From positions 1 through 18,003 of the forward strand of contig WFTN01000488.1 in NCBI GenBank assembly GCA_015485455.1: 18,003 bases of DNA, read 5' to 3'. The notes under the pieces are model-generated. The model was not told where the DNA came from. It saw nothing but the letters and a program-made list of their open reading frames with translations, and did not search any database. This stretch comes from Planctomycetota bacterium (GTDB lineage Bacteria > Planctomycetota > GCA-002687715 > DRQF01). Position 1 is the first letter of the stretch, and each line of letters begins with the position of its first letter. Position numbers and translations under genes: made by a program. Positions 2,229 through 17,966 of the stretch are shown here, piece by piece.

Positions 2229-4184
2229 TTATTGAATAGAAACCTGTATGGCATTGCTCAGTGCAATGCTTGCACTATTCGCCCCTCCGGTCAGCATCAA
2301 ACATTGCAAGGTCGCCAAGATTCCTGGAGGAAGACTCGGTATGTGGACACCAAAGACACTCTCACCAATCGGCCCAGTATTGAAGAAAGGATTCACACCC
2401 ACCGGCAAATTCCCGTCGGCCAAGACGACTATGCCTGTGGGGATCCCTGAAACTGGATCCACCGAGTTGCCAATGTCTATGGTTCCGATAGCTGGATAAT
2501 TTGCAATGGCTGGATTCAAAACCCCCGCAAGAAGAAGAATCGGCATTTGCGGCACGCCGGAGAATTCCATGAGCATGACTTCATTTGGTTTGACAGTCGA
2601 AAAATACGGCCCACCTAACATGGCACTTAGGAGTTCCAAATTAGGATTGGTTGGCTCGCCAATCCGAAATGTCGCCAAGCCTATCTGAGGGTCTTGGCCA
2701 ACTGGTGTTACTTGATCATAGACGGCCACATCATCAATGAGAATCGAATGATTGTTATGGATCGATGACGTAAACCCTTGATCTGTAGGAGCTCGAAAAA
2801 TCAATCGGATGGACCTCCCTGCAAACATACCCAAATCTACATCTTGGCGCATCCAAGCCGTCGAAGAGAGACTTCCGATCGGGCCGAACACATCCAAAGT
2901 CAAGAGTCCAGTTTGGGTGTCCAAGACATCAACACTCAAGGTATTCACCCCTGCGCCATAAGAAAAACTTGACAACCAAAAACGCAACTTTGGATTCGAA
3001 AGATTGGCAAGATCGAGGCATGGTGAATAGAAAACAACGGAGGCGTGGTCCGAATAAAAGTCCTTGGTCTGTGCCCATCCACCACCAGCCCCTACCGTGT
3101 GGTCAGAGAAAGAGCTGAGCTCTTCAAAGTAATACCAATCCGAACCGTGTCCTACTGAATCGGTGCTGACTTGTTCCCATCCAGGCGGTGAAACCGTGAT
3201 GCTGACTGGGTGCAGCTCATTAAACGTTTCAACCCACGGAAAATTCGAAACCCTCCCCACTCCGCCACTGTTGACGGTCACACTTAGTACATCATTTGCC
3301 GCGTACTGGTCGACGCTGAAGTTATGAGAAAATATGATCGTGTGCTCTCCAAGACCGGCAAGATCCGCTGTCACTCCAAACGTGTGCGAAAAGGTCGCTT
3401 TCGGTGGAATTGCGTTCGTGACAAAGATAAACTCCGTCACACTTGGTTGGCCATCAACTTGGAACGACACAGGTATTACTTCGCCAACAAGAATCGCAGC
3501 TGAACCCAAGTTTTGGAACTCGACACTGAGCTGCTGATTACTCGAAAGTGAACTGCAAGACAATGGATTTGGAATCGGCGCATTCAGCGCTTTTGTAACG
3601 ACATCAGTCACGTAGGGACCATGGAGAGAATAATGCACATTCAGGGCCGGCGCCCCTGTGTTGCCATTGGCGAAATATCGACCCTGAGGAGAAAACACCC
3701 CCGTATTCATGAATAAGTCAGAGTTACTGGTGGATGTCGACGCGAACCCGCGCAAATCAGCACCAGCATCTGCGTTGACCACATAGAATCCCCGTGACTC
3801 TCCTCCCACGATCAAGATATCGAGGGACAGATTCAATGGTGTCCAAGAACCAAGTCCGGCAGGCACCACGTCAACAACCGACGCAAGGAGATCCCATTCA
3901 TTGGGATCAAAAAGAGAGTTGGCGGTGTAAGGGCCTCCGTTTTTTGTCACCCATACTTCAAAGCTCCTTGGCAAGCCTAAAATCGTTACGAACTCAACAT
4001 CGAAGGAATCGACGACCATGGTGTTGTTTGCGGCTAGGTCGAAAAAATAACCGCTGCTTGGTGGCGTGTAGGATGGATTCGAGAATCCTGTACTTAGGGT
4101 CTGCGAGAACGAGTGCATATGAAGATCAAACACAAGGAACAAGATAACCAAGGCTGTTCGACAAGACCTCACGTTGTCGTTCAT
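2229..4184 (-). CDS. Exported CARDB/MAM-like beta-sandwich protein, 651 aa
   Basis: The protein is secreted and probably binds or adheres; no catalytic motif is visible. It has an N-terminal signal peptide (hydrophobic core about residues 11-25, likely cleaved near SFSQ). Next come an N-terminal beta-sandwich (about 30-190), a CARDB-like domain (about 200-306), a MAM-like jelly-roll module of the kind labelled choice-of-anchor (about 314-490, beginning FPWVETF and ending ILIDDVAVYD), and a C-terminal beta domain (about 500-651, with GIPTG and a terminal SNA-V pattern). From about residue 200 on, the architecture matches the upstream neighbour, so the two are paralogs. Its ATG overlaps the neighbour's stop (TAATG at 4186-4182), which suggests translational coupling. 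The C-terminal domain resembles repeated domains in planctomycete exported proteins. Ligand and localisation after export are unknown. Confidence 0.82.
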   Translation of the reverse strand: MNDNVRSCRTALVILFLVFDLHMHSFSQTLSTGFSNPSYTPPSSGYFFDLAANNTMVVDSFDVEFVTILGLPRSFEVWVTKNGGPYTANSLFDPNEWDLLASVVDVVPAGLGSWTPLNLSLDILIVGGESRGFYVVNADAGADLRGFASTSTSNSDLFMNTGVFSPQGRYFANGNTGAPALNVHYSLHGPYVTDVVTKALNAPIPNPLSCSSLSSNQQLSVEFQNLGSAAILVGEVIPVSFQVDGQPSVTEFIFVTNAIPPKATFSHTFGVTADLAGLGEHTIIFSHNFSVDQYAANDVLSVTVNSGGVGRVSNFPWVETFNELHPVSITVSPPGWEQVSTDSVGHGSDWYYFEELSSFSDHTVGAGGGWAQTKDFYSDHASVVFYSPCLDLANLSNPKLRFWLSSFSYGAGVNTLSVDVLDTQTGLLTLDVFGPIGSLSSTAWMRQDVDLGMFAGRSIRLIFRAPTDQGFTSSIHNNHSILIDDVAVYDQVTPVGQDPQIGLATFRIGEPTNPNLELLSAMLGGPYFSTVKPNEVMLMEFSGVPQMPILLLAGVLNPAIANYPAIGTIDIGNSVDPVSGIPTGIVVLADGNLPVGVNPFFNTGPIGESVFGVHIPSLPPGILATLQCLMLTGGANSASIALSNAIQVSIQ

Positions 4185-6322
4185 TACTCTATCTCCAAAA
4201 GCACCGCGTTCGTTAGTGAAATGCCCGATGTGGAGTTGTACATCGCACCTTGGAAGGTCGTGAGCAACCCAATTGGCAGCAATGGAGTGGTTGTGATCAA
4301 TCCACTGACTCCGGTCACATCAGTTATGAACAAGGGGTTCAATCCTGTCGGTGAATTGCCATCAAAAAGAACACTGATGCCGGTTGGGATACCAGTCATT
4401 GGGTTAACATTCCCGCCCACGTCCATTTGTCCGATATTTGGAAAGGTTGCCGATGCCACGCCATAATTCCCAAAGAACAAGATGACCGGCTGATTGCTTT
4501 CACCTTCAAGGCGAATCTCCAAGGTTTCGCCAATGATTGACGATGCAAAATATGGGCCTGGCTCGAGAAAAGAAACCAACTCATTTCCAATATTCCGGCA
4601 AGAATTGATATCCAAGACTGCAAGTCCTGGTTGTGGTGCCTGCCCCGCACCGATCAGATGATCGACCAAACGGAGATCGTCACAAATTAAGTAGTGCGCG
4701 TCCTGGACATTCGAAGTAACACCACGAAAGCGGAGCATGATTTTCTGCATGACAAAGGGATTGAGATCTATGAACTGTCGGTTCCAAGCTGGCGAGGTCG
4801 TAGACAGAGCTCCTTGTGGGCCATAGACATCAAGCAGGGTGTTGCCCGAAGGCCAGTCAATCACGTCGACGCTTAAGGTGCTATCTTGTTGCCCCGACAA
4901 ATTGACACTATTTAGCCAAAAATCGAACCGTGCATTCGACATACCGTTCAGATCGAAGATGGGACTCAACATGCTTATGGTGATTCCTGTCGCAACACTG
5001 TTGAGTCCACCAAGGAACGCAAAATTACCACCACGTGCACCGCCAAAAGTATGGTCACCGACGTCAAAGTAGACCGGGCCATTGGCCTCATTCAAGAAAA
5101 GCCAATCTCCGTATGAAAAAGGAGCAGCATTGTCATTTGCTTCTTGTGACCAGCCAATTGGAGCATTGGAACCCGGGCCAACTGCGTCAAAGTCTTCGGT
5201 GTAGGGAAATTGTGCAACGAATGCGCTTTGGGTTCCGCGAAAAATCCGTTCCCGAGTATCGTTTAGCGGCTGAAGATCTCCTACCATCGCAACAACAATC
5301 TCTAGACGCTGATGCCCTTGTTGAGCCAAGTCCACTGTGGATGTAAAAGTGTAAGAAGCTGTCTCTCCTGTCTGAAGAGCATTCGATATGGCAAACGACT
5401 CAGTAGTTTGAACAACGCCGTCTAAGACAATGGACAGTGGAAGAATCGTTCCCGCAGCAAGTGTGTTCGACCCCAAATTACTGATCCGTACTTTCACTGT
5501 CTCTGCCGCGGAAAGAGGGACATATGGATTCTGCTTCGGGGGTTGACTCGGACTGATGATCTTGATGACCGCCACATCATCCAACTTGGCGTTGGCTTCC
5601 GTGAACATCCCGCCTTGAATCTCTTGCTCATTGAGAACTCTTTGCCAAATCCGAAATTCATCAATTAGACCTTGCCAAGGTGCGGTCCCATCGCCGCCGA
5701 TAAGAAAGCCCGCAATGCCTTGCAATCTGACTCGTCCGATTTGAGCGACCGTGCCTTGAGAAACGCCATCGACAAAGGACGTCAGTGTCATATTTACGGA
5801 ATCATGAACGATCGCTAAGTGCTGCCATGTCGAAATGGCACCGATTTGATTTGCCAAGATCGACTCTCGATTTGTAGCCTCAAGAATCATGCGATCAAAC
5901 ACTCCATTACCCAGATCAACTATCCAAGGCGACAGGATTGAATCTTTCCCAAAAAGAACTGAACCATGGTAGCCAGTCCTCTTCAACCAGACCTCAATCG
6001 TCCAATCACCATTGTAATTGATGCCAGCAGTTGTCGAACAAGTTGGTATGGGCCCGGTGGATGTGGTCGCATCCAAGCAAGATGCACCGAGTTTCGGATC
6101 CACGGAATCCCAAGATACGAGAGCATTCATCAAGGGTGCAGTCCCCGAAATCCCCGGAATAGCGAAGTCGGTCGTCGACACTCCAGCGCCCTCATTAAAA
6201 CGCAAGTAAAGCAGCTCTGGCCGTTGAGCTAAGAGGGGAACACTAATACCCGCGATCAAGACACCGAATAGACAATAGTAAGCGATCAACATCGCCCTGC
6301 GAAGTAGTTTTTCTCTTTCCAC
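4184..6322 (-). CDS. Exported LamG/CARDB/MAM-like protein, 712 aa
   Basis: This secreted multidomain protein probably binds carbohydrate or another extracellular ligand. Translation most likely starts at GTG 6322-6320, because GAGG lies about 8 bp upstream (TGAGGCGGAATC); an ATG at codon 11 is the alternative. A signal peptide (about 1-33) is followed by a LamG/concanavalin-like jelly roll (about 36-235), shown by WTIEVWLKR, WQHLAIVHD and GLIDEFRIWQRVLNEQEI. A CARDB-like domain (about 250-362), a MAM-like module (about 373-553) and the same C-terminal domain as the downstream gene (about 560-712, with GIPTG and LTNAV) complete it. It begins 61 bp after the hydrolase gene on the same strand and overlaps the next gene by one base, consistent with one transcript. 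Compared with its downstream paralog, it carries a LamG domain in place of the first beta-sandwich. It has no enzymatic residues that I can identify. Confidence 0.83.
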   Translation of the reverse strand: MEREKLLRRAMLIAYYCLFGVLIAGISVPLLAQRPELLYLRFNEGAGVSTTDFAIPGISGTAPLMNALVSWDSVDPKLGASCLDATTSTGPIPTCSTTAGINYNGDWTIEVWLKRTGYHGSVLFGKDSILSPWIVDLGNGVFDRMILEATNRESILANQIGAISTWQHLAIVHDSVNMTLTSFVDGVSQGTVAQIGRVRLQGIAGFLIGGDGTAPWQGLIDEFRIWQRVLNEQEIQGGMFTEANAKLDDVAVIKIISPSQPPKQNPYVPLSAAETVKVRISNLGSNTLAAGTILPLSIVLDGVVQTTESFAISNALQTGETASYTFTSTVDLAQQGHQRLEIVVAMVGDLQPLNDTRERIFRGTQSAFVAQFPYTEDFDAVGPGSNAPIGWSQEANDNAAPFSYGDWLFLNEANGPVYFDVGDHTFGGARGGNFAFLGGLNSVATGITISMLSPIFDLNGMSNARFDFWLNSVNLSGQQDSTLSVDVIDWPSGNTLLDVYGPQGALSTTSPAWNRQFIDLNPFVMQKIMLRFRGVTSNVQDAHYLICDDLRLVDHLIGAGQAPQPGLAVLDINSCRNIGNELVSFLEPGPYFASSIIGETLEIRLEGESNQPVILFFGNYGVASATFPNIGQMDVGGNVNPMTGIPTGISVLFDGNSPTGLNPLFITDVTGVSGLITTTPLLPIGLLTTFQGAMYNSTSGISLTNAVLLEIE

Positions 6323-6383: not shown

Positions 6384-9300
6384 TCATGGCCGACGATAAG
6401 GCCTTCTCATCCTCCATGCGTGGAGTAACCTACTGTTGTCCGCCGTTGCACGGTTCATGAGCACATTGTATCCTCGACCTGCACGCAAGCGCTCCTGCGG
6501 GAGCGGGGTAGCTTCTGGCAATGCCCCGGCTGGGAATCTGCCATTGTGGGTAACGCCTGAATTGACATTAGTAAATTGGTTATTGTTTTTGTCGATAGTC
6601 CTGATGAATGGCAGTGCCGGGGCATAATATTTATGGTCACCTGTGTAGTCACCCCAAACGACAGTAGGGTCGTTTTCCGGTGCATCGCCAATAAATAATT
6701 GATCTTCATAGTCTGAATAGAATAGGACTGCCCCCGGAGTGTTTGTGGGAGGAAGATAATTCTGGTTAGCAGTGCCACTATCAACTTTCATGGTCATTCC
6801 AGATTCGAAGAACATCGAAGATTGAAGAAAGTAGGTCGCTATTTTGCAATCAGTTGGAAATGGCCATCCAATAGTAGAAACCGCATAGGAAACAAGCCCA
6901 GTATTGCCCATCGGGAGAGAAATTGGGTTCGAGGCTGAATCCAAGGGAACAGCATTGACATAAGCGTAAACGTCACTGGTGGAAACAAAGCCCGATGTCC
7001 AGTATGCTTCCGCGTCATCTCCAACAGACGAGGGCATGGCTATATATTCAATTGCTTCATCTGGCCTTAGGCGATAGTGCTCCAACTGAACCGCCGGCAT
7101 AGGAGTCGATGTACTTGCTTCGTCAACCCAATACCCCCCCGTTGCGCCCGGTAGGTCAATGTACTTCAAGATTACGTCAGCTTCCTGCCCCGCGTTGGAT
7201 GTCATCGTATTCGCAAACGTCATGACGAGATTGGTCCAATCAAGTTGATGGGCACTTCTTTGAAGGAAACGGATTCGGTCGCCATCAACAAATGGACTTG
7301 GTGCACCATCTGATGCAGCCAACCAATGATGTGGTACATTCACATCTCGTAGACCTTGAAACAAGTCTGCCAATGATGTCAAGCGCCTCACAGATATGCT
7401 TGAATTGACTGGAAGATCCAACGCTTGCTCCATATAGGAAGGATCTCGTTCGAACATCGAAATGCTAGTGGGACTTGCCGAGTCTACGAACCACCAGTGC
7501 CCTTCCATCCCATGGTCTTCAGGACTGGGCAAGGTGGTCCCTTGTGGAACTGGTAGAACGGCCCGACCTGATCTCCTCGAGGAAAAAGCATAGTCATCTT
7601 GGACGATAGCATAGTACTCGTGGTTCCCAGTGTGTGCTAGGTCAATTGATGGGTTTGGCAAAACGATAGAACCAAACGGACTTGTGCTACCTGAGTTCGT
7701 CGACCAAGTAGTAACTGCCATTGGGTAACTACCAGTTTGGGTTGGAGCAGAATTCAAGAGTACTCTTCGTTCATCTGGATTGTGAAACGGCGAACAAATA
7801 AAATTGGAGACTGCCAAAGAACCACCTTGGTTTCGCCGGATCAGTCCTTTTTCAATACCTACCGGCGCCGTTGTAACTGAGTGAAATTTCCCAGAATTTA
7901 GGACCAAAGCAATGCGGATGTACTTTTCGGTATTTGCGGAATCTACCTTGCGAAGAAACGAAACCGTAAATTCGTTTGTCGGTTGCCCTTGCGCTGGTGG
8001 GAGGACCTGAATTCCCGGGATCACTTTCCATTCAGGATAAACCTGAAAAGCGTCTCCCTCGTCTGAGAATAACCAATCGCAAGCTTGAACCACATAGCTG
8101 TTCCCCAGTTTCCCATTGAATTTGGCCGTGATTTCCCAGTAATCATAGGGCGCCGCGATTGATTTCAGCTCTTTGGTCAACGATGTGAACTTAAAGGTCT
8201 TCGATGGGTCGGTAACTTCATTGACGCCACTGTGAACCCCGGCTAACCCAGCGTGAGCATACTCGTTTCCATCCAGTTGACCATCGCCGTCAATATCCGC
8301 CATGGGTGATCCAGGGATTTGCGGCGGCTCATTCGCATCGTCCAAGCCATCTCGATCCATATCAACAATACCGCGTAGATGTTCGTCAAAAAAGCACGCA
8401 TATTCACCACGGTCTTTTTTGTCCATATCGCGGTATCCATGTTTCTCGCCTCCTCTCGCTATCAATCGGTCAAACGGTGCCGCCGGGAAAATGTTGTCGT
8501 GGATTTGCTTGTAACGAGTAGGTTGATACGGCGAGACAACGGAATCACAGTCTCCGTACATGTAGAGAATAGGTGGATCATTCTGCGGAAAATTTGCTCC
8601 TATTTTGTCCGCAATTTGAAATCCCACAAATAGGTCAGCCCAAGCAGAGGGGAGATAGCCATAGAGGGGGCTGATTGAGTCTTCGTTGTTTCTAGCAGTC
8701 GCCTCATCGTCGCCGAAGACTGGTGTCTGGAATGAAAGCAAAGAACTAAAGGCACTAGAATTCACCTGTCTTTCCAATCCTTGATTGACTGTGACACCCG
8801 CTCTCAACTCTAAGTAGATTTCCGGAAAGAATCGGGCATCGGCATCGCCATTAATCCACTTTGTCAAAAGACTTGAAGTACTGCTGGGGAAGACAATCTG
8901 TTTGTTGACGTCAAGGTGCGTCGGCAATCCCAGGACCGAAGGGGTCGGGTAGCCGAGGCAGGTCAAATCAGCGTGGACATAGAGCGCTGCATTTCGACGT
9001 ACATAGCTAGTGTCGCCAAGAACACGCCAATTGTAGACATCAACCCCCGGAGATTCGACCGTGGCAGCTCCGATCGCTGTATCAACAGGCGTCAACCCAG
9101 ACAGGCCCGGTACTGGCAGCAGAGCCGTTTTCCTGTCCTCATTCTTGGTGAGTGCGACATCAAGCGCCAAATAGGCCGCCGAACTTGCGCCAATAGCACC
9201 CCACGACATGGGTAAATGAGGGTCACTTATCGGAAACTGATTGCCAGTCCAACCGCTGGGTGCTGCCAAGCCAGCAGTGTTGTTCACACACCATTTCTTG

Positions 9301-9776
9301 ATCTCCAAAACAGACTCCTCCACAAATTCCCGTATCTCTGCAGAGATATATCCTGGGTGGGATGAAGAGAAACCGGCCTGGTTACACAGGGGGACCCCAT
9401 TCGTATTATGGTCGTCCGGCACTACGAGAGCCGTCGGAGGGTGAGTCACGATGAAAACCGTATATCCCTTCCTTAGGTATCTTTGAAACAAGTTGAGAAC
9501 GGCGCCACCAGACCAATAGCTATCGTGATGGGAAACAAAGCCGGCACTATCCATCCAAATCAGACCATAACCATTCGGCTCTGGTGACTTTGGGACAAGG
9601 ACAACGATGCCGTTGTTTTCGTCATCAACGCCACTCCAATAATGCAGCGCAGGTGTCGATCTCGTTCGCGGGATCACATATCGATCGAACATCGCATGAG
9701 ATTCTGTTTGCCCAAACAAGAAAGTCCCAAAGCTAAGCAGAAAACAGAGTCCAGCAATTAGATTTATTCGTGACAT
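6384..9776 (-). CDS. Giant secreted alpha/beta-hydrolase-fold protein with EF-hand-like module, 1130 aa (paralog 1)
   Basis: The preferred start is ATG 9776-9774, with GAGGGA 5 bp upstream and an immediate signal peptide (MSRINLIAGLCFLLSFGTFL). The frame extends to 9869, but that would add 31 residues before the signal peptide and cover the candidate promoter. The first ~440 residues resemble a secreted esterase or peptidase-like alpha/beta hydrolase: nucleophile elbow GASSA (Ser198), acid in YGDCDSVVSPYQ (Asp411), histidine in GGEKHGYRD (His446). Two acidic calcium-loop motifs follow, DMDRDGLDD (472-480) and DIDGDGQLDGNE (494-505). A ~600-residue beta-rich region of unknown family comes next, with conserved SPEDHG, GHWWF, STIGWPFPTD and VVWGDYTGD. 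It ends in the basic tail WRMRRPYRRP. The nucleophile motif is GxSxA rather than GxSxG. The substrate is unknown. It heads the minus-strand operon. Confidence 0.8.
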   Translation of the reverse strand: MSRINLIAGLCFLLSFGTFLFGQTESHAMFDRYVIPRTRSTPALHYWSGVDDENNGIVVLVPKSPEPNGYGLIWMDSAGFVSHHDSYWSGGAVLNLFQRYLRKGYTVFIVTHPPTALVVPDDHNTNGVPLCNQAGFSSSHPGYISAEIREFVEESVLEIKKWCVNNTAGLAAPSGWTGNQFPISDPHLPMSWGAIGASSAAYLALDVALTKNEDRKTALLPVPGLSGLTPVDTAIGAATVESPGVDVYNWRVLGDTSYVRRNAALYVHADLTCLGYPTPSVLGLPTHLDVNKQIVFPSSTSSLLTKWINGDADARFFPEIYLELRAGVTVNQGLERQVNSSAFSSLLSFQTPVFGDDEATARNNEDSISPLYGYLPSAWADLFVGFQIADKIGANFPQNDPPILYMYGDCDSVVSPYQPTRYKQIHDNIFPAAPFDRLIARGGEKHGYRDMDKKDRGEYACFFDEHLRGIVDMDRDGLDDANEPPQIPGSPMADIDGDGQLDGNEYAHAGLAGVHSGVNEVTDPSKTFKFTSLTKELKSIAAPYDYWEITAKFNGKLGNSYVVQACDWLFSDEGDAFQVYPEWKVIPGIQVLPPAQGQPTNEFTVSFLRKVDSANTEKYIRIALVLNSGKFHSVTTAPVGIEKGLIRRNQGGSLAVSNFICSPFHNPDERRVLLNSAPTQTGSYPMAVTTWSTNSGSTSPFGSIVLPNPSIDLAHTGNHEYYAIVQDDYAFSSRRSGRAVLPVPQGTTLPSPEDHGMEGHWWFVDSASPTSISMFERDPSYMEQALDLPVNSSISVRRLTSLADLFQGLRDVNVPHHWLAASDGAPSPFVDGDRIRFLQRSAHQLDWTNLVMTFANTMTSNAGQEADVILKYIDLPGATGGYWVDEASTSTPMPAVQLEHYRLRPDEAIEYIAMPSSVGDDAEAYWTSGFVSTSDVYAYVNAVPLDSASNPISLPMGNTGLVSYAVSTIGWPFPTDCKIATYFLQSSMFFESGMTMKVDSGTANQNYLPPTNTPGAVLFYSDYEDQLFIGDAPENDPTVVWGDYTGDHKYYAPALPFIRTIDKNNNQFTNVNSGVTHNGRFPAGALPEATPLPQERLRAGRGYNVLMNRATADNSRLLHAWRMRRPYRRP

Positions 9777-9810
9777 TATCGTCCCTCTCAATTCTTCCTT
9801 GATTCCTGAA

Positions 9811-9834
9811 ATCATTGATGGAGAACTCAATGAT
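9811..9834. promoter_or_regulatory. 8 bp inverted repeat in the leader of hydrolase paralog 1
   Basis: ATCATTGA (9811-9818) and TCAATGAT (9827-9834) form a perfect inverted repeat with an 8-nt spacer, 35-58 bp upstream of the preferred ATG and just downstream of the candidate -10. It could be an operator or a leader hairpin. It is short and no equivalent is seen before paralog 2, so chance remains possible. Confidence 0.3.
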
Positions 9835-9840
9835 GAAGTG

Positions 9841-9869
9841 AGCGTAAACGTTACTCTGGAATGTGTCAA
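9841..9869 (-). promoter_or_regulatory. Candidate promoter of hydrolase paralog 1
   Basis: On the minus strand a perfect TTGACA (9869-9864) is followed after 17 bp by TACGCT (9846-9841), about 64 bp before the ATG at 9776. The -10 is poor by sigma-70 standards. The same arrangement precedes paralog 2: TTTGACAC, 17 bp spacer, TAC-S-S-T. Its position argues for the downstream start codon. Confidence 0.42.
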
Positions 9870-10082
9870 ATACCAAACGAAAATTCTCTTCCTAAGTCGA
9901 CATCACCTCTTCGAGACACTAGCCAAAATTGCCCGACCTGCTGGTTATACGATGATAGCAATTCTCAAGGTCAAGGGTGCCGTTAACTCATTGCTTCGGA
10001 AAGCCAAATCCCATTGAGGATAGCCATGCTGTTCAATCACTTGGCATTCTTCACCTTTTCTTCTTTCACCTTTGGGATCATG
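9870..10082. other. Short region between promoter of paralog 1 and IS66, with a possible gene remnant
   Basis: No known gene lies here. On the minus strand a ~49-codon frame begins after a TAA inside the IS66 left end and stops at 9947-9945. It reads YHDPKGERRKGEECQVIE, then HGYPQWDLAF. It has no good start and may be a fragment or chance. A competing 72-codon plus-strand frame (9799-10017) is no more convincing. A pyrimidine-rich tract repeats TTCACCTTT twice next to the IS66 end. Confidence 0.35.
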
Positions 10083-10103
10083 GTAAATGCCTGGTTAACC
10101 CAT
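10083..10103 (+). repeat. IS66 left terminal inverted repeat
   Basis: The 21 bp begin GTAAATGCC and end CCCAT. They pair with the right end at 14 of 21 positions, including the outermost GTAAA and the inner CCCAT. Confidence 0.6.
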
Positions 10104-10190
10104 CTGGGTTTTGAGGTACGACCTTCAACAAGATGGAGGCTCAGACTTTTCCCTAAAGGAGCTGCCTCAATGAATTAAATCGAAACTCAG

Positions 10191-10493
10191 ATGCGTGACG
10201 TGCTGGCTCAGCGTGATCACGAAAACAAAGAGTCTCTGCGTGCGCTGGCACAGCGGACAGGTGTTCACTATTCCAAAGTCATTTACTGGAATACGCGGTT
10301 TGAACGAAGAGCAGGCGGCCGCAAAGCGGCTGCTTCATTTGTTCCAGCGCAAGTCGTTCCTGATGCCACTTCGAAAGGTATGTCTTCTTCCTCTTTCGAA
10401 GTTGTCATCGATCAGGAACACCGGGTGGTCGTCCCAACAGGCTTCCATGCAACCGAGCTTTCCCGCCTGATAGGAGTTCTTCGCTCATGCTAA
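10191..10493 (+). CDS. tnpA: IS66 accessory protein TnpA (HTH protein), 100 aa
   Basis: This small protein, the first gene of IS66 elements, probably binds the transposon DNA and is needed with TnpB for transposition. An HTH-like segment (SLRALAQRTGVHYSKVIYW, about residues 15-33) is followed by a variable linker. The family's C-terminal motif comes last (FEVVIDQEHRVVVPTGF, then LSRLIGVLR, about 69-98). The ATG at 10191 gives a normal family length. Its TAA lies inside the start of tnpB (ATGCTAA, 7-base overlap), so the two are probably translationally coupled. No strong ribosome-binding site is visible. Confidence 0.85.
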   Translation: MRDVLAQRDHENKESLRALAQRTGVHYSKVIYWNTRFERRAGGRKAAASFVPAQVVPDATSKGMSSSSFEVVIDQEHRVVVPTGFHATELSRLIGVLRSC

Positions 10494-10849
10494 GCTTGCC
10501 ACCATCGGTGAAGATCTACGTCGCTCAAGAACCTGTCGACATGCGCCGCGGTTTCGACGGATTGAGCGGTCTTGTTTGCGATGTCGTCAAAGAGGACCCT
10601 CAGTCTGGTCATCTTTTTGTTTTCTCAAACAAGAGAAAAAATCTTTCGAAGATATTGTGGTGGGATCGTTCCGGCTATTTCCTACTTTGCAAGCGTCTTG
10701 AGCGGGGGACATTTTCATTCTTCGACGAAACCGCAAGGGGTGCAAGCAGCTACACCATAAGTTCTTCCGACCTCGCCTTGATCCTTGAGGGCATCGATCT
10801 GCGTGGGGCCAAGCGTCGTCCTGCTCATGACGACGGCTTCGAAGTTTGA
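10487..10849 (+). CDS. tnpB: IS66 accessory protein TnpB, 120 aa
   Basis: This is the Orf2 protein of IS66 elements, required for transposition, with a biochemical role that is still unclear. The family pattern is unmistakable: VKIYVAQEPVDMRRGFDGL (about residues 8-26), LFVFSNKRKNLSKILWWDR (about 43-61) and GYFLLCKRLERGTF (about 63-76). The length is normal and the frame undamaged. It overlaps tnpA by 7 bases and is followed after 8 bases by tnpC. Confidence 0.93.
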   Translation: MLSLPPSVKIYVAQEPVDMRRGFDGLSGLVCDVVKEDPQSGHLFVFSNKRKNLSKILWWDRSGYFLLCKRLERGTFSFFDETARGASSYTISSSDLALILEGIDLRGAKRRPAHDDGFEV

Positions 10850-10857
10850 AGCAATGA

Positions 10858-12435
10858 TTGTATTTCTTAGAATGTGTCGTGAACAATCCTGCTTGCGACA
10901 ACTCGATTGACGTTGATTGCCTGAGCCTCGAAGAGGCTCGGGATTTGATCCGGCAATTGATGCTTGAGATCGACTATCTCAGTGAAGACAAGAAGATTCT
11001 TCTCAACCGCCTCTTTGGCAAGAAGTCAGAAAAGACCAATCGCGATCAGCTTCATCTCTTTGAGCAAGAAGAGGAAGATGAGGATGAGGATGAAGAACAG
11101 GTCATTCCCACTCACACACGGCGCAAGAGCAAGAAAAATCGGCAGGGTCGTCCTGCCTTTCCTGCTCATCTTCCTCGCGAAGAGTTTCACTGCGAACTCA
11201 GTGGTGATGATCTTTCATGCCCAGATTGCGAAGCTGAACTCAAGCGCATCGGCGAAGACATCTGCGAGCGCGGCCATATTGTCCCAGCGAAGATCATCGT
11301 GAGGCGCTTCATCAAGGGCAAGTACGCTTGCCCCAATGGTCATGTCTTGAAAACGGCGGAAGCGCCGGCTGCGGTAGTCCCACGCGTTAAGTATGAGCCT
11401 TCGGTTTACGCGCACATTGCAGTCTCCCGGTTTGGGGATCACTTGCCCTATACCCGACAGGAGAGCATCTTCAAACGCCAAGGTTTTGCCATTCCACGCT
11501 CGACCATGGGCGACATGATGCAGAGACTCGGAGAAATCGCCGGAGAGCCTATCCTCAAGCAGATGCTAAAGGAACTCCTAACCGAAGACGTGGTTCAGGC
11601 GGACGAGACAACGATCACCGTCTTGAAAGAGGGCCAAAAGGGTACACTCTCTGGATACATGTGGGTCTATCGCAGCCCGACGAAAGTACTCTTTGACTTC
11701 ACCATCGGCAGAGAATCCCTTGGCCCGACGACAATTCTTGCGCTCTTCTTCGGCATCCTTCAGATCGATAGCTATTCTGGATACAACGAGATCGTCATCA
11801 AGAATAGCCTCATTCGGGCTGGATGTTGGAGTCATGCCAGACGCAAGTTTCACGATGCTTTGAAGAGCAACAAGAAACATGGCGCTGCCATGCTGTCCCT
11901 CATCGGACGGCTCTTTCGTATTGAAGCCATACTGAAATGGTTGCGTGTTCGACGGCATTTGTGCGACGATGATTTCTTTGCACTGCGTGTCGCTGTGCGA
12001 ACGCGTTACTCCAAGCCCGTGATAGAGAAGATCGAAACTCGTCTACTCGACGTGAAGGCGATGCGCTCAATATTGCCCAAGAGTGCTATGGGCAAGGCTG
12101 TGAAATATGCTTGGAACCAAAGAGAAACTCTGAAGGCTTTCATTGAGCATGGCTGTGTCGAGTTGGACAACAATGCTGCCGAACGTGCAATCAGGCAGGT
12201 CGCGGTCGGTCGCAAGAACTATATGTTTGCAGGCAGCGTCAAGGGTGGCAAGACTGCTGCGATTCTCTACTCGCTTATTGGCAGCTGTAAAGTCTTGGGC
12301 ATCAACCCGCAGGCTTACCTCGAAGATGTCTTGATGAAGGTTGCCATCACGCCACAGTCCGAGGCCCATATCCTGACACCCTGGGGCTGGCAAAAAAGCC
12401 AGGCGCAGAACTCAATAGCCAATCTAGCTGATTAA
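10858..12435 (+). CDS. tnpC: IS66-family DDE transposase TnpC, 525 aa
   Basis: This transposase catalyses cut and strand transfer of the element. An N-terminal leucine-rich coiled coil (about 23-52, LSLEEARDLIRQL) is followed by FGKKSEK, an acidic stretch of Glu and Asp (about 70-80), and the IS66 zinc-binding segment (Cys121, Cys124, Cys158, His162). The DDE core has Asp249 (VVQADET), Asp304 (LQIDSYSGYN), the family motif WSHARRKFHDA (324-334) and Glu442 (ELDNNAAERAIR). The C-terminal IS66 domain (SLIGSCKVLGINPQAYLED) is present, so the protein looks complete and active. The start is uncertain: TTG 10858 lies 8 bp after tnpB, and GTG 10879 is an alternative. Confidence 0.93.
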   Translation: MYFLECVVNNPACDNSIDVDCLSLEEARDLIRQLMLEIDYLSEDKKILLNRLFGKKSEKTNRDQLHLFEQEEEDEDEDEEQVIPTHTRRKSKKNRQGRPAFPAHLPREEFHCELSGDDLSCPDCEAELKRIGEDICERGHIVPAKIIVRRFIKGKYACPNGHVLKTAEAPAAVVPRVKYEPSVYAHIAVSRFGDHLPYTRQESIFKRQGFAIPRSTMGDMMQRLGEIAGEPILKQMLKELLTEDVVQADETTITVLKEGQKGTLSGYMWVYRSPTKVLFDFTIGRESLGPTTILALFFGILQIDSYSGYNEIVIKNSLIRAGCWSHARRKFHDALKSNKKHGAAMLSLIGRLFRIEAILKWLRVRRHLCDDDFFALRVAVRTRYSKPVIEKIETRLLDVKAMRSILPKSAMGKAVKYAWNQRETLKAFIEHGCVELDNNAAERAIRQVAVGRKNYMFAGSVKGGKTAAILYSLIGSCKVLGINPQAYLEDVLMKVAITPQSEAHILTPWGWQKSQAQNSIANLAD

Positions 12436-12453
12436 ATTCATCGGATTTTTCCT

Positions 12454-12511
12454 CCTCACCATTCGGTGAGGCCCCCATCAATTCTACTTCCAATCCGCCA
12501 GCCTCGGCGGA
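12454..12511 (+). other. Two short GC-rich hairpins downstream of tnpC
   Basis: CCTCACC and GGTGAGG (12454-12460 with 12465-12471) form a 7 bp stem with a 4-nt loop. TCCGCC and GGCGGA (12494-12499 with 12506-12511) form a second hairpin. Neither is followed by a T run on either strand, so they are not standard terminators. They lie in the IS66 right non-coding end and could reduce readthrough. Confidence 0.45.
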
Positions 12512-12528
12512 AATCAAGACTTCCTGGC

Positions 12529-12549
12529 ATGGGAAGAGCGTGCGTTTAC
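12529..12549 (-). repeat. IS66 right terminal inverted repeat
   Basis: On the minus strand the 21 bp begin GTAAACGCA and end CCCAT. They match the left end at 14 of 21 positions. Confidence 0.6.
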
Positions 12550-12580
12550 AACGCTTCGCGCTCGGAAGTCCCGTCACTGC

Positions 12581-12649
12581 TGGCCGAGATCACTGGCCCG
12601 CATTTGTCATTCACTCGGGGAAACGGGTGCTCACAGTGATCCCTGGCCA
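12581..12649. repeat. Long imperfect inverted repeat between IS66 and hydrolase paralog 2
   Basis: GATCACTG (12588-12595) pairs perfectly with CAGTGATC (12634-12641), flanked by a second 5 bp pairing of TGGCC (12581-12585) with GGCCA (12645-12649). Inside, CCCG and CGGG can pair again. This could fold into a ~69-nt structured element. Nothing coding is recognised around it in 12550-12736, and it lies about 90 bp upstream of the candidate promoter. Function is unknown; it may be a remnant of another mobile element. Confidence 0.4.
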
Positions 12650-12736
12650 ATAACGGACTCAAGAGGCTACCCGCAGATCCCAAAATGACTGGCAATCGAG
12701 TCCAGACGCGGAATCGCTGAAGATCAAGGAAATCAT

Positions 12737-12765
12737 TTGACACGCATGGGTACTTCAAATACCGT
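12737..12765 (+). promoter_or_regulatory. Candidate promoter of hydrolase paralog 2
   Basis: TTGACA (12737-12742), a 17 bp spacer and TACCGT (12760-12765) end 75 bp before the preferred ATG 12841. The hexamers and spacer length mirror those before the divergent paralog. Confidence 0.42.
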
Positions 12766-12840
12766 CCAAGGTCGTCTCTGATTGGATACAGGGCGATAAA
12801 CTAACGTAGCTCGCGTAGGGAATTGGGGAGGTTATTGACA

Positions 12841-15800
12841 ATGTACGTCAAACAGGTGATTGTCTTTTCGATTCTTATTCTCGGATTGTTCCAGTCACTC
12901 TTGAGATCGCAAACTTTGCCTCGAGCAACTTTTTCTAGATATATTATTTCACGCCCAAGAACGTCACCTCCTTTACATTATTGGGATCAAATGGATGACG
13001 AAAGAAACGGTGTCGTAGTGCTTATGCCCACGAATCCCGTTCCAAACGGCCTTGGAATTTTGTGGCTCGATAGCTCTGGGTTTTCGTCCCACAAAGACAC
13101 TTATTGGATTGGCGATATTCGCCTTAACTTGTTTCAACGTTTCCTAAGGAGAGGGTACACTGTATTTATTATTACTCATCCTGAAACGACCAAACTCGTA
13201 CATGAGAATTCTGGGAATCCAGCGGATCCCGTGCCCGGGTACATTACTCCGGAACAACGCGACTTTATTGCAGAGTCAATATTGGTGATCAAGCAATGGT
13301 GCGTCTCGAATCCACTTAATTTGGCCGCCCCCACGAGTTACACTGGCACTTTCTTTCCAGTAAATGCCCCACAGTTACAAGGCTCTTGGGCAATCACGGG
13401 TGCTAGTTCTGGAGGTTTTTTCGCCCTTGATATCGCCCTTGAAAAACACTCTAAGCGCAAGAGTTCACAGTTTCTCCACAACTCGGTCAACTACGATCTG
13501 GATACTCGTGTTGGTGCAGCTTTCGTCGAATCCCCAGGCTGCGACTCGTACAATTGGCGTTTCCCGGGTGACATTTCGCCTTTGCGCCGTGCCGCACAGA
13601 ATTATGTTCATCCAGATCTGTCAATGTGGGGTTATCCAGTCCCTGAAGCAGATCCAGCGCATGTTCCGAGTCACTATGTGCCTGGAAGTCAGATAGCTTT
13701 TCCGCCATCGAACTCGCAAGTCTTGAAAGATTCGGTGGCCGGCATTGCAAGCGCCAAAGATTTTCCTGAGATCTATCTCAAACTTAAGCCGAATTGGGCA
13801 ACAAATTCCTTGGACAGAGATGTTGAATGGGACGCTCTGAATTTCGTATTGCCAGGAACAATGCTTGATCCGCTCCTAAACGCAAACGCGAATACAAGTT
13901 ATCCACCGCTACCTAACGACTGGATGCAGATGTTTGCTGGTTTTCAGCCCGTAGACAAAATTGGTTCAAATCTAAGCAACTCCCCCCCGGAGATTGACGT
14001 ACCGATCTTGTATTTCTTTGGTGACAATGACTCGATTGTACCACCATATCAGGCAAAGTTATATAAAGATACCTACGATGCAGCCCATTCGACCGCGGGT
14101 CCTATGGGTAGCCCCTTGACGTTTGACACCCTATATCCGCGTATTGGAGGGCACCATGGATCTCGTGACTTGGATTCGAAAGACCGGGAGGAGGGGATTT
14201 CTTTTTTTGACCAGGAGCTGCGCGGAATTAGCGATGCAGACCGTGACGGATTGGAAGATACAAATGAAACTGGGTTGACAGCTGGATTTTCAGATACGGA
14301 CGGTGATGGCCAAATGGACGGCAATGAGTACATTCATTCGGGAGACAACATCACAGAAGCGGTTGATCCGTCCTCGAAATTTCAGATCACGTCGATGAGC
14401 AAGAAACTCGATCCGACGCAGACCGAATGGGATATTGAATTGTATTTCGATGGAAAAGGCTCGACTGCTGCAGATTATGTCCTACAGAGCTGCAAATGGC
14501 TCCTGAAGGACGATGGCAATGGAAGTTTTCGTACTTATCCTCGGTGGAAGGATATGGTGCAGTCTCCAATGATCACAAATCTGTCGACAGGGAAGTTTAA
14601 GGCCACTTTCAACAGAGCGGTCAATTCTGGGAGCGATGAGAAGTATTACCGTGTTGCGTTGGTTTCCACGAACAGCAATTTCAATTCAGTGACGACCGCA
14701 CCTGTGGGGATAAAGAAAGGGCGTATTCGCCGCGAGAATCATCCCCAAACGGGAACTTCGACGGCTAAAGACGTGGTCAATCTTATTTGCTCGCCTTTTC
14801 ACAATCCGGACGAACGACGAGTCGCTGTCCTTTCAAAATCGAACATTGCCCTAGTCACGACGTGGGTTACTCATGCTGGGCTCGCAATGCCGTTCTCAGC
14901 GAGAGGCAAACTGCAGACTCTACCGCTACATCCGACAAATACTAGTGATTTTGAATACTACGTCATTATTCAGAAGGATTTCTCGAAGTCTTCGAATCGT
15001 GCAGGCCGTTCTTCAGTCCCGCCCCCGGTCTACCTTCCAAGTCCTGAGGACCATGGTATTGAGGGGCACTGGTGGTTCTTGGATGGTGCCAGCGCAAACA
15101 GTATCACGATAACTGAACGCCATTCATATTTGACCCAGGCCTTTGACCTTCCTCTACACTCGAGTGTTTCGATTCGCAAACTGATTTCTTTGGCGGATTT
15201 GTTTGATGGATTAAAGAATACCGCGGCCGGGGCACCGGTGGACAGTTGGTTGCGCGCCTCCGCTGGGGCACCAAGTCCATTTGTCCATGGCGACAAAATT
15301 CGTTTCCTCAAGCGGGGTTCTCATAATGTCGTTTGGGAAACCCTAGGATCGTTCTCACCTCCAATTGCTAGTCAAGCGACGATTACCTTCGACGAAATGA
15401 CAAACCCTAGGATCGGACAATGGCGTGACGAAACCACAAATGCAGTCGTCAAATTAGAAGACTATCGGCTTATGCCAGACGAGGCCATCCAATATATCGC
15501 AAAGCCGGCCAACTACGGTTTAGACTACGAGACCTATTGGAATTCGGGCTTTGTGTCGACAAGTGATATTTACGCTTACGTTAACTCCCTTGCAGGCACC
15601 GCGACTCTACCCATTAATCCTCCGACAACCAATTTCGGAGGGGTAGAGTATGGCAGGTCGACTATTGGATGGCCATTTCCAACCGATTCAAGATTAGCCA
15701 CCTATTCTGGTCAATCGACTATGTTTTTTGACTCTGGACTGACGATGAAGATGAATAAGATTGATGCAGCGACTGGCCTCAGAACGACGACTGGAACTCT

Positions 15801-16158
15801 TGGTCAATCTAATCTACCTTCTACCGATACTGCGGGGGCTGTCATGTATTACACGGATTACCTAGGGCCAAACTATATTGGCGATTCACCGCTATCGGCT
15901 TCGGTAGTCTGGGGTGATTTCACAGGCGAATTCTTTTACTATGCGCCTGCACTACCGCTAATTCGATCGGTCGACGTTCGCGACCCCTCACAGATTGTCT
16001 ATGGGACGAATCTGGCAGCCGAAGGCGGCACCGTCGTGAATTCTAAACTCAAGTTAAGGGGCGGTCGTGGGTACAATATTCTGATGAATCGCAAACCTGG
16101 CGAAGAGCACATGTTTCTTCAAGAGTGGCGAATGAGGCGCCCCTACCGACGGCCATAG
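12841..16158 (+). CDS. Giant secreted alpha/beta-hydrolase-fold protein with EF-hand-like module, 1105 aa (paralog 2)
   Basis: The start is ATG 12841, with GGGGAGG 9 bp upstream; an in-frame TTG at 12823 overlaps that site and is unlikely. A signal peptide (about 1-24, hydrophobic VIVFSILILGLFQSLL) precedes an alpha/beta-hydrolase-like domain. Its nucleophile elbow is GASSGG (Ser189), the acid lies in FFGDNDSIVPPYQ (Asp397), and the histidine in GGHHGSRDLD (His438 or 439). Calcium-loop motifs DADRDGLED (465-473) and DTDGDGQMDGNE (485-496) follow. The remaining ~600 residues are beta-rich, of unknown family, and strongly similar to the divergent gene at 6384-9776 throughout (shared SPEDHG, EGHWWF, PFPTD, YAPALP). 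It ends WRMRRPYRRP. A canonical GxSxG makes catalysis plausible, but the substrate is unknown. No clear terminator follows. Confidence 0.82.
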   Translation: MYVKQVIVFSILILGLFQSLLRSQTLPRATFSRYIISRPRTSPPLHYWDQMDDERNGVVVLMPTNPVPNGLGILWLDSSGFSSHKDTYWIGDIRLNLFQRFLRRGYTVFIITHPETTKLVHENSGNPADPVPGYITPEQRDFIAESILVIKQWCVSNPLNLAAPTSYTGTFFPVNAPQLQGSWAITGASSGGFFALDIALEKHSKRKSSQFLHNSVNYDLDTRVGAAFVESPGCDSYNWRFPGDISPLRRAAQNYVHPDLSMWGYPVPEADPAHVPSHYVPGSQIAFPPSNSQVLKDSVAGIASAKDFPEIYLKLKPNWATNSLDRDVEWDALNFVLPGTMLDPLLNANANTSYPPLPNDWMQMFAGFQPVDKIGSNLSNSPPEIDVPILYFFGDNDSIVPPYQAKLYKDTYDAAHSTAGPMGSPLTFDTLYPRIGGHHGSRDLDSKDREEGISFFDQELRGISDADRDGLEDTNETGLTAGFSDTDGDGQMDGNEYIHSGDNITEAVDPSSKFQITSMSKKLDPTQTEWDIELYFDGKGSTAADYVLQSCKWLLKDDGNGSFRTYPRWKDMVQSPMITNLSTGKFKATFNRAVNSGSDEKYYRVALVSTNSNFNSVTTAPVGIKKGRIRRENHPQTGTSTAKDVVNLICSPFHNPDERRVAVLSKSNIALVTTWVTHAGLAMPFSARGKLQTLPLHPTNTSDFEYYVIIQKDFSKSSNRAGRSSVPPPVYLPSPEDHGIEGHWWFLDGASANSITITERHSYLTQAFDLPLHSSVSIRKLISLADLFDGLKNTAAGAPVDSWLRASAGAPSPFVHGDKIRFLKRGSHNVVWETLGSFSPPIASQATITFDEMTNPRIGQWRDETTNAVVKLEDYRLMPDEAIQYIAKPANYGLDYETYWNSGFVSTSDIYAYVNSLAGTATLPINPPTTNFGGVEYGRSTIGWPFPTDSRLATYSGQSTMFFDSGLTMKMNKIDAATGLRTTTGTLGQSNLPSTDTAGAVMYYTDYLGPNYIGDSPLSASVVWGDFTGEFFYYAPALPLIRSVDVRDPSQIVYGTNLAAEGGTVVNSKLKLRGGRGYNILMNRKPGEEHMFLQEWRMRRPYRRP

Positions 16159-16353: not shown

Positions 16354-16534
16354 GGCTCTTCACGGATTTTAGTGGCTCTGGGTTGCGAGTTTTCTTTGGC
16401 AATGCGAAAATCTTCGAATGCTTAACTTACCTGAACACTATGCGCAGCTTCTTGGTCTCGACGAATCTTGGCACGTAGATGATGTGGATCTTTCGATCGA
16501 AGACAATCGAGTGACCATCAATCTACATGCTGTT
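16354..16534 (+). mobile_element. ISL3-family element, left-end fragment interrupted by an IS3 element
   Basis: GGCTCTTCACGGATTTTAGT at 16354 resembles ISL3-family terminal inverted repeats, which characteristically begin GGCTCTTC or close to it. It lies 64 bp upstream of an ISL3-like transposase start. The copy is cut at 16534 by the IS3-family element. Its remainder should lie to the right of 17966, mostly outside the window, so the right end and target duplication cannot be checked. Confidence 0.7.
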
Positions 16535-16537
16535 TGA
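16418..16537 (+). pseudogene. ISL3-family transposase, first 39 codons only
   Basis: ATG 16418 opens a frame reading LPEHYAQLLGLDESW, then VDDVDLSIEDNRVTINLHAV, which matches the usual N-terminus of ISL3 transposases (an LLGL motif, then V-x-D-L, just before the zinc-binding cysteines). The frame ends at TGA 16535-16537, the first three bases of the inserted IS3 element. The CxxC zinc finger and DDE core are therefore missing. The identification rests on family pattern from memory and a short piece, supported by the GGCTCTTC end upstream. Confidence 0.68.
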
Positions 16538-16560
16538 TCTTCCCCCAGTTTGGTAGACAC
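16535..16560 (+). repeat. IS3-family left terminal inverted repeat
   Basis: The 26 bp match the reverse complement of 17941-17966 at 19 positions. The shared core is TCTT, CCCC, TTGGT and GACAC. Confidence 0.8.
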
Positions 16561-16600
16561 GGAGAAAGGAGTATATAGTGCTCCAGAAAGGTGGCCCCAA

Positions 16601-16897
16601 ATGCCCAAGAAAAGAAAACAGTATAATCGCGAATTCAAGATCGAAGCGGTCAAGCTTACGGAAGATCCAGAGAGGTCGGTAGCAAGCGTGGCGTCGAGTC
16701 TTGGCGTTTCCACTAGCACTCTTCATTCATGGAAAAAGAAGTATTCCGTCGACGGGCTTTTCGCCTTCCCAGGTCATGGAAAACTTAAGCCGGTTGATGA
16801 CGAGCTTCGCAAAGTCAAGAAAGATCTTGCACGAGTACGGCAAGAACGAGACGTGTTAAAAAAAGCGATGGGCTACTTCGTGCACGACAAACGCTGA
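16601..16897 (+). CDS. IS3-family transposase OrfA (HTH and leucine zipper), 98 aa
   Basis: This protein binds the element ends and, alone, acts as a regulator; fused to OrfB by frameshifting it forms the transposase. ATG 16601 is preferred over upstream GTG codons because the protein then begins with the family pattern KKRKQYNREFKIEAVKL. An HTH (SVASVASSLGVSTSTLHSWK, about residues 27-46) and a leucine-zipper-like helix (LRKVKKDLARVRQERDVLKK, about 68-87) follow. An AGG lies about 12 bp upstream of the ATG. Near its end the gene contains a run of seven A, the -1 slip site. Confidence 0.9.
   Translation: MPKKRKQYNREFKIEAVKLTEDPERSVASVASSLGVSTSTLHSWKKKYSVDGLFAFPGHGKLKPVDDELRKVKKDLARVRQERDVLKKAMGYFVHDKR
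16858..16864 (+). promoter_or_regulatory. Programmed -1 ribosomal frameshift site (A AAA AAA)
   Basis: Seven consecutive A in the orfA frame (TTA AAA AAA GCG) form a classic slippery heptamer of IS3 elements. After a -1 slip the frame reads from 16864 without a stop straight into the orfB frame, through FRFIRDHRKSF and the ATG at 16945. This yields an OrfAB fusion ending at 17754. Confidence 0.85.
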
Positions 16898-16944
16898 GAT
16901 TTCGTTTTATTCGAGATCACAGGAAGTCCTTCGAAGTAGCCCTA

Positions 16945-17754
16945 ATGTGCAGAGTTTTGGAAGTCTCCCGGAGCGGCTTCTACGCTTGGTTGGAGAGACC
17001 AGAGAGCGAGCGAGCGAAGTCAGATAAAGCTCTGTTCGAAAAAATTGAAACGATCTACACGGAGAATCGCGGGGTCTATGGATCACCTCGAATTCACCGA
17101 GTACTGATTAAACAGGGCGATAGATGCGGCAAGAATCGAGTTGCGCGAATCATGAAAGAGCAAGGAATAAGAGCTAAGGGGAAGCGAAAGTTCAAGCCAC
17201 AAACGACAGATTCGAAGCACTCTCTTCCAATTGCGAAAAACTTGATCAAGCAAGACTTTAGCGCAGCAGGGCCCAATCAGCTCTGGTTGGCCGACATCAC
17301 CTATATAGCGACCGACAAAGGATGGATGTACTTAGCGGCGATCATCGACGCCTATTCACGAATGATCATCGGTTGGGCTATGGCGGATCACATGAGAAAG
17401 GAATTGGCTCTTGAAGCCTTGGAGATGGCCGTCCAGAGCCGGGGAGTCACTGAAGGACTCATTCACCACTCTGACCGCGGGTCCCAATATGCATCGAACG
17501 CATACCAAGAAGAACTGAGCAGGTTGGGCATCCTCTGCAGCATGAGCGGCGTTGGCAATTGCTACGACAATGCCATGATGGAGAGTCTCTTCCACACATT
17601 GAAAGTCGAGTGCGTTCACGGAGAGAACTTTGAAACGAGAAGCGAGGCGAAATCAGTAATTTTTGAGTACATAGAATGCTTTTACAATCGTCAGAGAATC
17701 CACTCGAGTCTGGGATACAAAACGCCAACTCAATTCGAAGAGCAGGTTGCATAG
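16945..17754 (+). CDS. IS3-family transposase OrfB (DDE integrase core), 269 aa plus transframe N-terminus
   Basis: This is the catalytic half of the IS3 transposase. The coordinates begin at the first ATG in frame, but the frame is open from 16864 and is most likely translated as OrfAB after the -1 frameshift. The HTH_21-like segment (GVYGSPRIHRVL, 43-54) precedes the rve integrase core: Asp117 (LWLADITYI), Asp177 (HHSDRGSQY) and Glu213 (NAMMESLFHTLK), a DD(35)E spacing. The conserved GNCYDNA and the closing FYNRQRIHSSLGYKTP are present. Length and ends are normal, so the copy appears functional. Confidence 0.94.
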   Translation: MCRVLEVSRSGFYAWLERPESERAKSDKALFEKIETIYTENRGVYGSPRIHRVLIKQGDRCGKNRVARIMKEQGIRAKGKRKFKPQTTDSKHSLPIAKNLIKQDFSAAGPNQLWLADITYIATDKGWMYLAAIIDAYSRMIIGWAMADHMRKELALEALEMAVQSRGVTEGLIHHSDRGSQYASNAYQEELSRLGILCSMSGVGNCYDNAMMESLFHTLKVECVHGENFETRSEAKSVIFEYIECFYNRQRIHSSLGYKTPTQFEEQVA

Positions 17755-17782
17755 AAGTGATGGACAAACAAACCCAAAATTC

Positions 17783-17870
17783 GCCCCATGGGGCCCGCCT
17801 TCGGCGGAAGAGCCCGAGCCCAGGGAGGAACTCCGCTTCGCTCCATTCCTCCCTGGGACCCCTCGGCCTT
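17783..17870 (+). terminator. Stacked GC-rich hairpins with T-tail downstream of orfB
   Basis: Three palindromic units lie in the IS3 right non-coding end. GCCCCATGGGGC is a perfect 12 bp palindrome (17783-17794). CCGCC-TTC-GGCGG follows (17795-17807). A large hairpin pairs CCCAGGGAGGAA (17819-17830) with TTCCTCCCTGGG (17846-17857), extended outward by CCGAG (17814-17818) with CTCGG (17862-17866) around a 4-nt bulge. CCTTTT follows on the plus strand, so a transcription terminator for orfB is plausible. The amount of structure exceeds a simple terminator and recalls REP-like elements. Confidence 0.6.
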
Positions 17871-17940
17871 TTGGATCATGAAGCACTTGCAATTCACCAT
17901 GTACAAGACTAAAGTCAAAGACGAAGTTTATCTTATGTTG

Positions 17941-17966
17941 GTGTCCACCAACTCGGGGTAAGACTA
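17941..17966 (-). repeat. IS3-family right terminal inverted repeat
   Basis: The reverse complement begins TAGTCTTACCCC and matches the left end at 19 of 26 positions. Confidence 0.8.

Follow-up and report, generated by a model that had tools for sequence, protein, structure and literature searches.

A lineage-restricted family of putative secreted esterases with a TIGR02597-like tail in Planctomycetota

The founding enzyme of the BD-FAE type (PF20434), an alpha/beta-hydrolase with a Ser-Asp-His triad, acts both as a feruloyl esterase and as an acetyl esterase, and alginate loci are one setting, though not the only one, in which its more distant homologs occur (PMC8165983). A carbohydrate esterase part can also lie within a multidomain enzyme, as in the bifunctional GH43-CE protein 6mly, and bacterial thrombospondin type 3 (TSP3) repeats (PF18884) contain loops of the D-x-D-x-DG pattern. 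TIGR02597, in turn, is a named secreted family that is functionally blank. Here we describe two giant genes in which parts resembling these systems are joined. The window, that is, the whole stretch of DNA analyzed (18,003 nucleotides), comprises positions 1 to 18,003 of contig WFTN01000488.1 of the Planctomycetota bacterium assembly GCA_015485455.1. Gene A (6384..9776, minus strand) encodes a protein of 1130 amino acids (aa) and gene B (12841..16158, plus strand) one of 1105 aa, and the two are transcribed divergently. We consider it probable that A and B belong to a small family, confined to one lineage and subject to repeated duplication and decay, whose members are secreted serine esterases with a TIGR02597-like tail, usually found in an operon with proteins of the LamG/MAM type.

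The BLASTP alignment of the two proteins starts at residue 6 of A (residue 7 of B) and extends to their very ends; its 530/1163 identities (46%) and score of 906 bits are far above the chance level. This end-to-end alignment, together with sizes and coordinates that proved correct, agrees with the initial annotation of the window, which had described A and B as full-length divergent paralogs. The same annotation held that the C-terminal half is the better conserved part, which is true in direction, but the margin is slight: the two proteins are 52% identical in the tail and 49% in the hydrolase half (56% in the Asp-rich loops and 37% in the small beta module). The signal-peptide-like starts of both proteins were judged by eye. 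No Pfam model scored above its cut-off in A or B and no NCBIfam model came near its own; as had been supposed, the fusion as a whole corresponds to no named family. What is new about it is the way in which known parts are combined, not the kind of system.

The alpha/beta-hydrolase half, already recognized from the sequence, occupies residues 25-471 of A (8364..9704, minus strand) and residues 25-464 of B (12913..14232, plus strand), and was confirmed by profile comparison. The family profile matched carbohydrate esterases in the PDB (6xyc, E 1.2e-6; 6tkx, E 1.3e-6; 6mly, E 1.9e-5), and hhalign aligned it with eight stand-alone planctomycete proteins, themselves found by the same profile, at E 1.2e-32. 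Three of these eight were scanned in Pfam, and all three proved to be PF20434 members (E 2.4e-42 to 2.2e-31). At the gathering score of PF20434, A and B gave no match in Pfam, and the Pfam scan of the full-length relative from genome G235 gave no match; three of the nine homologs scanned matched PF20434 below the cut-off (E 1.6e-4 to 0.02). When B alone was searched against PDB sequences, the best matches were antibody chains (E 0.11). The candidate catalytic triad, in B numbering, consists of Ser189, which is present in 9/9 alignment rows covering the column, and Asp397 and His439, each present in 11/11. The database form of the copy on contig C135 starts later, and the motif GASSGG is present in its longer frame. 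From these profile matches and conserved columns, the hydrolase half is predicted to be a divergent BD-FAE-type esterase in which the Ser-Asp-His triad is kept. It resembles the BD-FAE enzymes in its alpha/beta-hydrolase type, in its triad and in having PF20434 members as stand-alone relatives, but A and B differ in that they lack a PF20434 match, have a longer Ser-to-Asp stretch than the stand-alone proteins and carry, fused to the hydrolase, other domains totaling ~640 residues. In 6mly, by contrast, the partner domain is a different one, to judge by its name, and no match was listed beyond the hydrolase stretch 348-442.

A short middle region follows the hydrolase half. Residues 472-521 of A (8214..8363, minus strand) show the D-x-D-x-DG pattern, and in the corresponding residues 465-507 of B (14233..14361, plus strand) the Asp and Gly columns are invariant in 11 rows. 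PF18884 exceeded its cut-off in two of the nine homologs scanned, both from genome G002 (loci L023 and L024), fell below it in the database protein P0008 and was not listed for A or B; in the profile search of the PDB, the biofilm-associated surface protein 7c7r matched the loop region (E 0.0012). The description of the loops as EF-hand-like held, and they are likely to be of the TSP3 type and, as such, would bind calcium. The likeness to the bacterial repeat lies in the loop pattern and in the two homologs over the cut-off, whereas A and B are not called by the model and contain a short stretch only. Next comes a small beta-rich module of ~108 residues, delimited in A (residues 522-632; 7881..8213, minus strand) by alignment to B and in B (residues 508-615; 14362..14685, plus strand) by strands predicted in a low-confidence model. 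In the tail model, this is one of the stretches predicted with more confidence, with predicted local distance difference test (pLDDT) scores of 61-83 in ten-residue blocks over model residues 11-100, except for a score of 44 at residues 51-60.

The remainder of each protein, residues 633-1130 of A (6384..7880 with the stop codon, minus strand) and 616-1105 of B (14686..16158 with the stop codon, plus strand), forms the tail. That this part is beta-rich was borne out, and no Pfam or NCBIfam model covers it; the view of it as an unknown region did not hold, however, because its profile aligned almost over the full length with TIGR02597. We compared the family tail with an alignment of 30 TIGR02597 proteins (27 of 33 database proteins, several of them named TIGR02597 at the source, and three from genome loci), and hhalign gave a probability of 96% with E 2.5e-9 over 319 columns. 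The alignment was collinear and covered positions 7-493 of 503 in the tail and 21-343 of 344 in TIGR02597. In the corresponding controls, the hydrolase part (E 0.26), the beta module (E 0.093) and the reversed tail (E 0.61) did not match, none of 100 block-shuffled tails reached the score of 76.1 (best, 35.1), and two further families of secreted, beta-rich proteins from this lineage yielded nothing. On this profile evidence, the tail appears to be a remote, very divergent relative of TIGR02597 and not a member. The two share the order of their motifs, and TIGR02597 members also start in a signal-peptide-like manner (by eye), but the tail of A and B has ~490 residues instead of ~340, is 16-18% identical to TIGR02597 and is attached to an esterase. 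The search of described families for the C-terminal half has therefore produced a relative, but one that is named rather than understood; none of the PubMed Central papers covered by a search for the identifier TIGR02597 uses it, and the best match of a PDB search with the TIGR02597 alignment had E 0.26. The C-terminal end RRPYRRP was considered as a sorting signal and rejected, as the TIGR02597 proteins inspected also end in W or a PY-type stretch; because the hhalign alignment runs into it and TIGR02597 ends alike, this stretch more probably forms the domain's final strand.

The family is small and restricted to one lineage, as computed in the genomes searched. The genome of the window (G000; 4.13 Mb, 614 contigs, 77% complete) contains five family matches, namely A, B, two further large copies on contigs C135 and C547, and a short relic on C302. 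With B as the query, three of 99 genomes (the window's own included) matched: G000, G001 of the same genus and G002 of the same family. When 392 genomes of the phylum were searched with a profile, two candidates being scored per genome, 118 genomes gave matches; among the matches listed, four genomes carry both halves (G000, G001, G002 and G235, the last up to position 903 of 1087), and the remaining ones show just one part, either the hydrolase or the Asp-rich loops. In the protein database, B retrieved eight proteins when the 8000 best candidates were scored, including P0001, which is a piece of B, and P0002, which is A. An 11-row alignment retrieved 22 proteins, four known and 18 new; since each of the new ones spans 3-10% of the query and contains PF18884, we regard them as TSP3-only matches. 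This search was not exhaustive, because the known members P0006-P0008 were not returned. Among GTDB contigs, a scan with a six-row alignment, which may omit the genome of the window, found four loci, all in one metagenome-assembled genome (Dive96_bin3.79), and a very diverse alignment found no relative; nor did one scan of viral contigs, and a tblastn search of plasmids with B gave no match.

Large copies coexist with relics (C302, C799 and C132), and for this reason the history of the family looks like birth and death of copies. The C799 relic contains two in-frame stops, and the C302 relic (L017:4452-4646) retains ~65 N-terminal esterase residues and overlaps the start of a MauE-like frame. 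Contig C224 of G002 was considered as encoding a stand-alone tail, a reading that we dropped: its open frame runs to the contig end, and it thus looks like a truncated third copy. Near the esterase fragment on C46 of G001, we also observed three similar-looking tandem open reading frames (ORFs) of 535-587 aa that are porin-like by eye (L019:1956-7440, minus strand).

The gene order around the family is conserved within the genus: where the contig extends far enough, the esterase gene is followed on the same strand by the gene for a LamG/MAM protein and then by that for a second MAM-type protein. In the window, the first partner of A (4184..6322, minus strand) is a 712-aa protein with LamG (PF13385; Laminin_G_3, E 2.6e-18) and MAM-like parts, and the second (2229..4184, minus strand) is a 651-aa protein of the MAM/choice-of-anchor-J-like kind (NCBIfam NF038128, E 1.5e-5, below the cut-off). 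Six large copies have a 3' flank that is visible, and the first partner stands behind five of them (A, C135, C547, C787 and C457) as well as behind both relics with such a flank, C132 and C799, which like C787 are from G001. In five of these seven (A, C135, C787, C132 and C799) the second partner is present as well; the C547 and C457 contigs end first, with the beginning of the first partner visible. The count omits C302, as an N-terminal relic, C46 and C339, the contigs of which end before the 3' end of the gene, and the copies of G002 and G235, which belong to other genera. At C135, where the gene ends overlap, the partners are 49.6% and 45.0% identical to those of A. The three genes may be co-expressed. 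Gene B is the sole exception, as tblastn found no partner remnant downstream and a 39-aa ORF and an IS3-family element follow instead; B lost its partners or never had them, and otherwise it is probably the same enzyme as A.

Two further observations concern the neighbors. With the LamG partner as the query, a secreted MAM-like family with a common C-terminal domain gave 27 matches in G000, 37 in G001 and 13 in G002, at loci that include 2229-6322 of the window, L015, L018, L021, L022, L064 and L065. Divergent to the esterase gene on C547 (L016:3693-11088, G000) lie genes for a double-sulfatase protein with an F5/8 type C domain and for a GH2 beta-galactosidase with an F5/8 type C domain, which hints at the degradation of sulfated polysaccharides. 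A literature search for Planctomycetota with esterase and sulfatase, and for Verrucomicrobia, found nothing related.

The most likely reading of A is that of a serine esterase that is exported and acts on acylated polysaccharide, with lectin-like partners for attachment. The enzyme would be exported, calcium would stiffen the TSP3-type loops as a linker or spacer, the tail and/or the lectin-like LamG/MAM partners would hold the polysaccharide or the cell surface, and the catalytic domain would remove acetyl or other acyl groups. What the computations establish is the architecture, the conservation of the triad and of the gene order, and the rarity of the family among the genomes covered; the chemistry, export, calcium binding, substrate and mode of attachment are inferred from these. 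Only tentatively do we extend this to TIGR02597-type domains at large, which could be substrate- or surface-binding modules; here, one such domain would be joined to a carbohydrate esterase by a linker that calcium stiffens, with the fusion encoded in an operon with lectin-like partners. If true, this would represent a new type of modular secreted esterase and the first functional handle on TIGR02597: a functionally blank family would be tied to an enzyme with guessable chemistry, and the function of the domain would become testable.

Several results weigh against this account. The link to TIGR02597 depends on the full 11-row alignment, the seven first rows giving E 9.5e-5 over 205 columns, and single sequences matched TIGR02597 insignificantly (B, E 0.035; P0008, 0.029; the G002 pair, 0.022). 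A hidden Markov model of the TIGR02597 alignment reached E <0.01 with four of the eight family proteins in an eight-sequence search (A, 0.4; B, 0.13), and one of the 100 shuffled tails gave E 0.0011, so that the hhalign E-values are somewhat generous here. The NCBIfam model TIGR02597 (cut-off, 50 bits), which matched in 8 of the 392 genomes of the phylum (four over the cut-off), did not list any of the 11 family proteins that were scanned with a limit of E 1, and had no match anywhere in the genome of the window. The AlphaFold models were poor (pLDDT 54.2 for the tail and 47.8 for the whole protein), and Foldseek returned nothing at E 0.001 with either low-confidence model (best E 1.9e-3 for the tail and 6.3e-3 for the full model); the first match of the full model was the alpha/beta serine hydrolase 2fuk (E 0.0063), amid antibody chains. 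It is because the single-sequence and model matches fail and the E-values are generous that we speak of a remote relative. The tail could instead be a structurally new domain whose likeness to TIGR02597 reflects convergence of beta-rich motifs, which would fit these failures of the model, of the single sequences and of the fold search with a poor model. We regard this as unlikely in view of the nearly full-length collinear profile alignment, with a score more than twice that of any shuffled tail, and of the silence of the reversed tail, the hydrolase part, the beta module and the two other secreted families. Concerning the partners and the substrate, at L064 and L065 the LamG/MAM pair is present with no esterase beside it; a secreted protein of the FG-GAP type, and not the pair, comes after the C234 and C270 copies of G002, the sister genus (L024:12200-13912, plus strand, C234, identified by Pfam; L023:3-869, minus strand, C270, by eye); and the polysaccharide context comes from one locus, C547. 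Instead of a carbohydrate esterase, the hydrolase part might be an S9-like peptidase, a lipase or an enzyme that hydrolyzes esters of some other kind. Enzymes of the alpha/beta-hydrolase fold act on a wide range of substrates, four of the nine homologs scanned had weak Peptidase_S9 matches, all below the cut-off, and prolyl oligopeptidase 7c72 was among the weak PDB matches (E 0.018). Yet the best profile relatives are BD-FAE-type proteins and carbohydrate esterases, and both the LamG partner and the sulfatase/GH2 neighborhood fit work on polysaccharides; to us, the alternative is the less probable choice.

It had been proposed that a single inverted duplication gave rise to the A/B pair and that an IS66 element landed later in their shared upstream region, which we consider improbable. 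The two genes are adjacent and divergent, and A, B and C135 form a supported clade (100/99), within which A+C135 receives 57/36.8 and neither A+B (approximately unbiased test, p-AU 0.405) nor B+C135 (p-AU 0.236) is rejected; the second tree, to which these inner values belong, omits P0008 and the two G002 proteins. The alternative pairing of A with B is therefore compatible with the tree. However, two further large copies and a relic exist in the same genome, and within the trio A and B are the least similar (49.0% identity, compared with 53.5% for A and C135 and 52.0% for B and C135). Moreover, the three-gene operon is common to A and C135, with B lacking it, and the ~420-440 bases that precede A gave no blastn match to those that precede B. 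As for IS66, its genes (10191..12435, plus strand) comprise a small first ORF (10191-10493; no significant Pfam match), TnpB (10487-10849; PF05717, E 2e-31) and TnpC (10858-12435; PF03050, E 1.1e-77). The ends of the element could not be delimited, as a search for ends and target duplication beside these genes found only a 12-bp inverted match (11/12) and no 8-bp duplication, and a landing in a shared upstream region was not substantiated. A survey for the pair and its orientation in relatives found family copies there, but the divergent pair was seen once: by BLAST of open frames, the contigs fetched for the other copies contain one family ORF each and no second divergent pair. Because B lacks partners and lies among mobile elements (IS66 and IS3), the arrangement of A and B is probably a rearrangement accident and not a functional unit. 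If so, the locus illustrates how two conspicuous divergent genes next to an insertion sequence may owe their arrangement to such an accident, and the family provides an example, from planctomycetes not in culture, of an extracellular operon that duplicates and decays.

The remaining features of the window flank the subjects above. The IS3-family element downstream of B (16538..17963, plus strand, approximate ends) was identified by Pfam matches to HTH_Tnp_1, rve and HTH_21 and by an imperfect terminal repeat (15/20 bp), and its transposase ORFs lie at 16550-16897 and 16945-17754 on the plus strand (Pfam). Just ahead of it, the 39-aa ORF (16418-16537, plus strand) may resemble the start of an ISL3-type transposase. 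At the other end of the window, the contig end truncates a gene for a SIR2 anti-phage defence protein of the Dsr1 type, the N-terminal part of which is encoded at positions 3-1256 (minus strand), as indicated by NCBIfam (E 4.7e-55, below the full-length cut-off), PADLOC (E 5.1e-48) and the Pfam domain SIR2_2.

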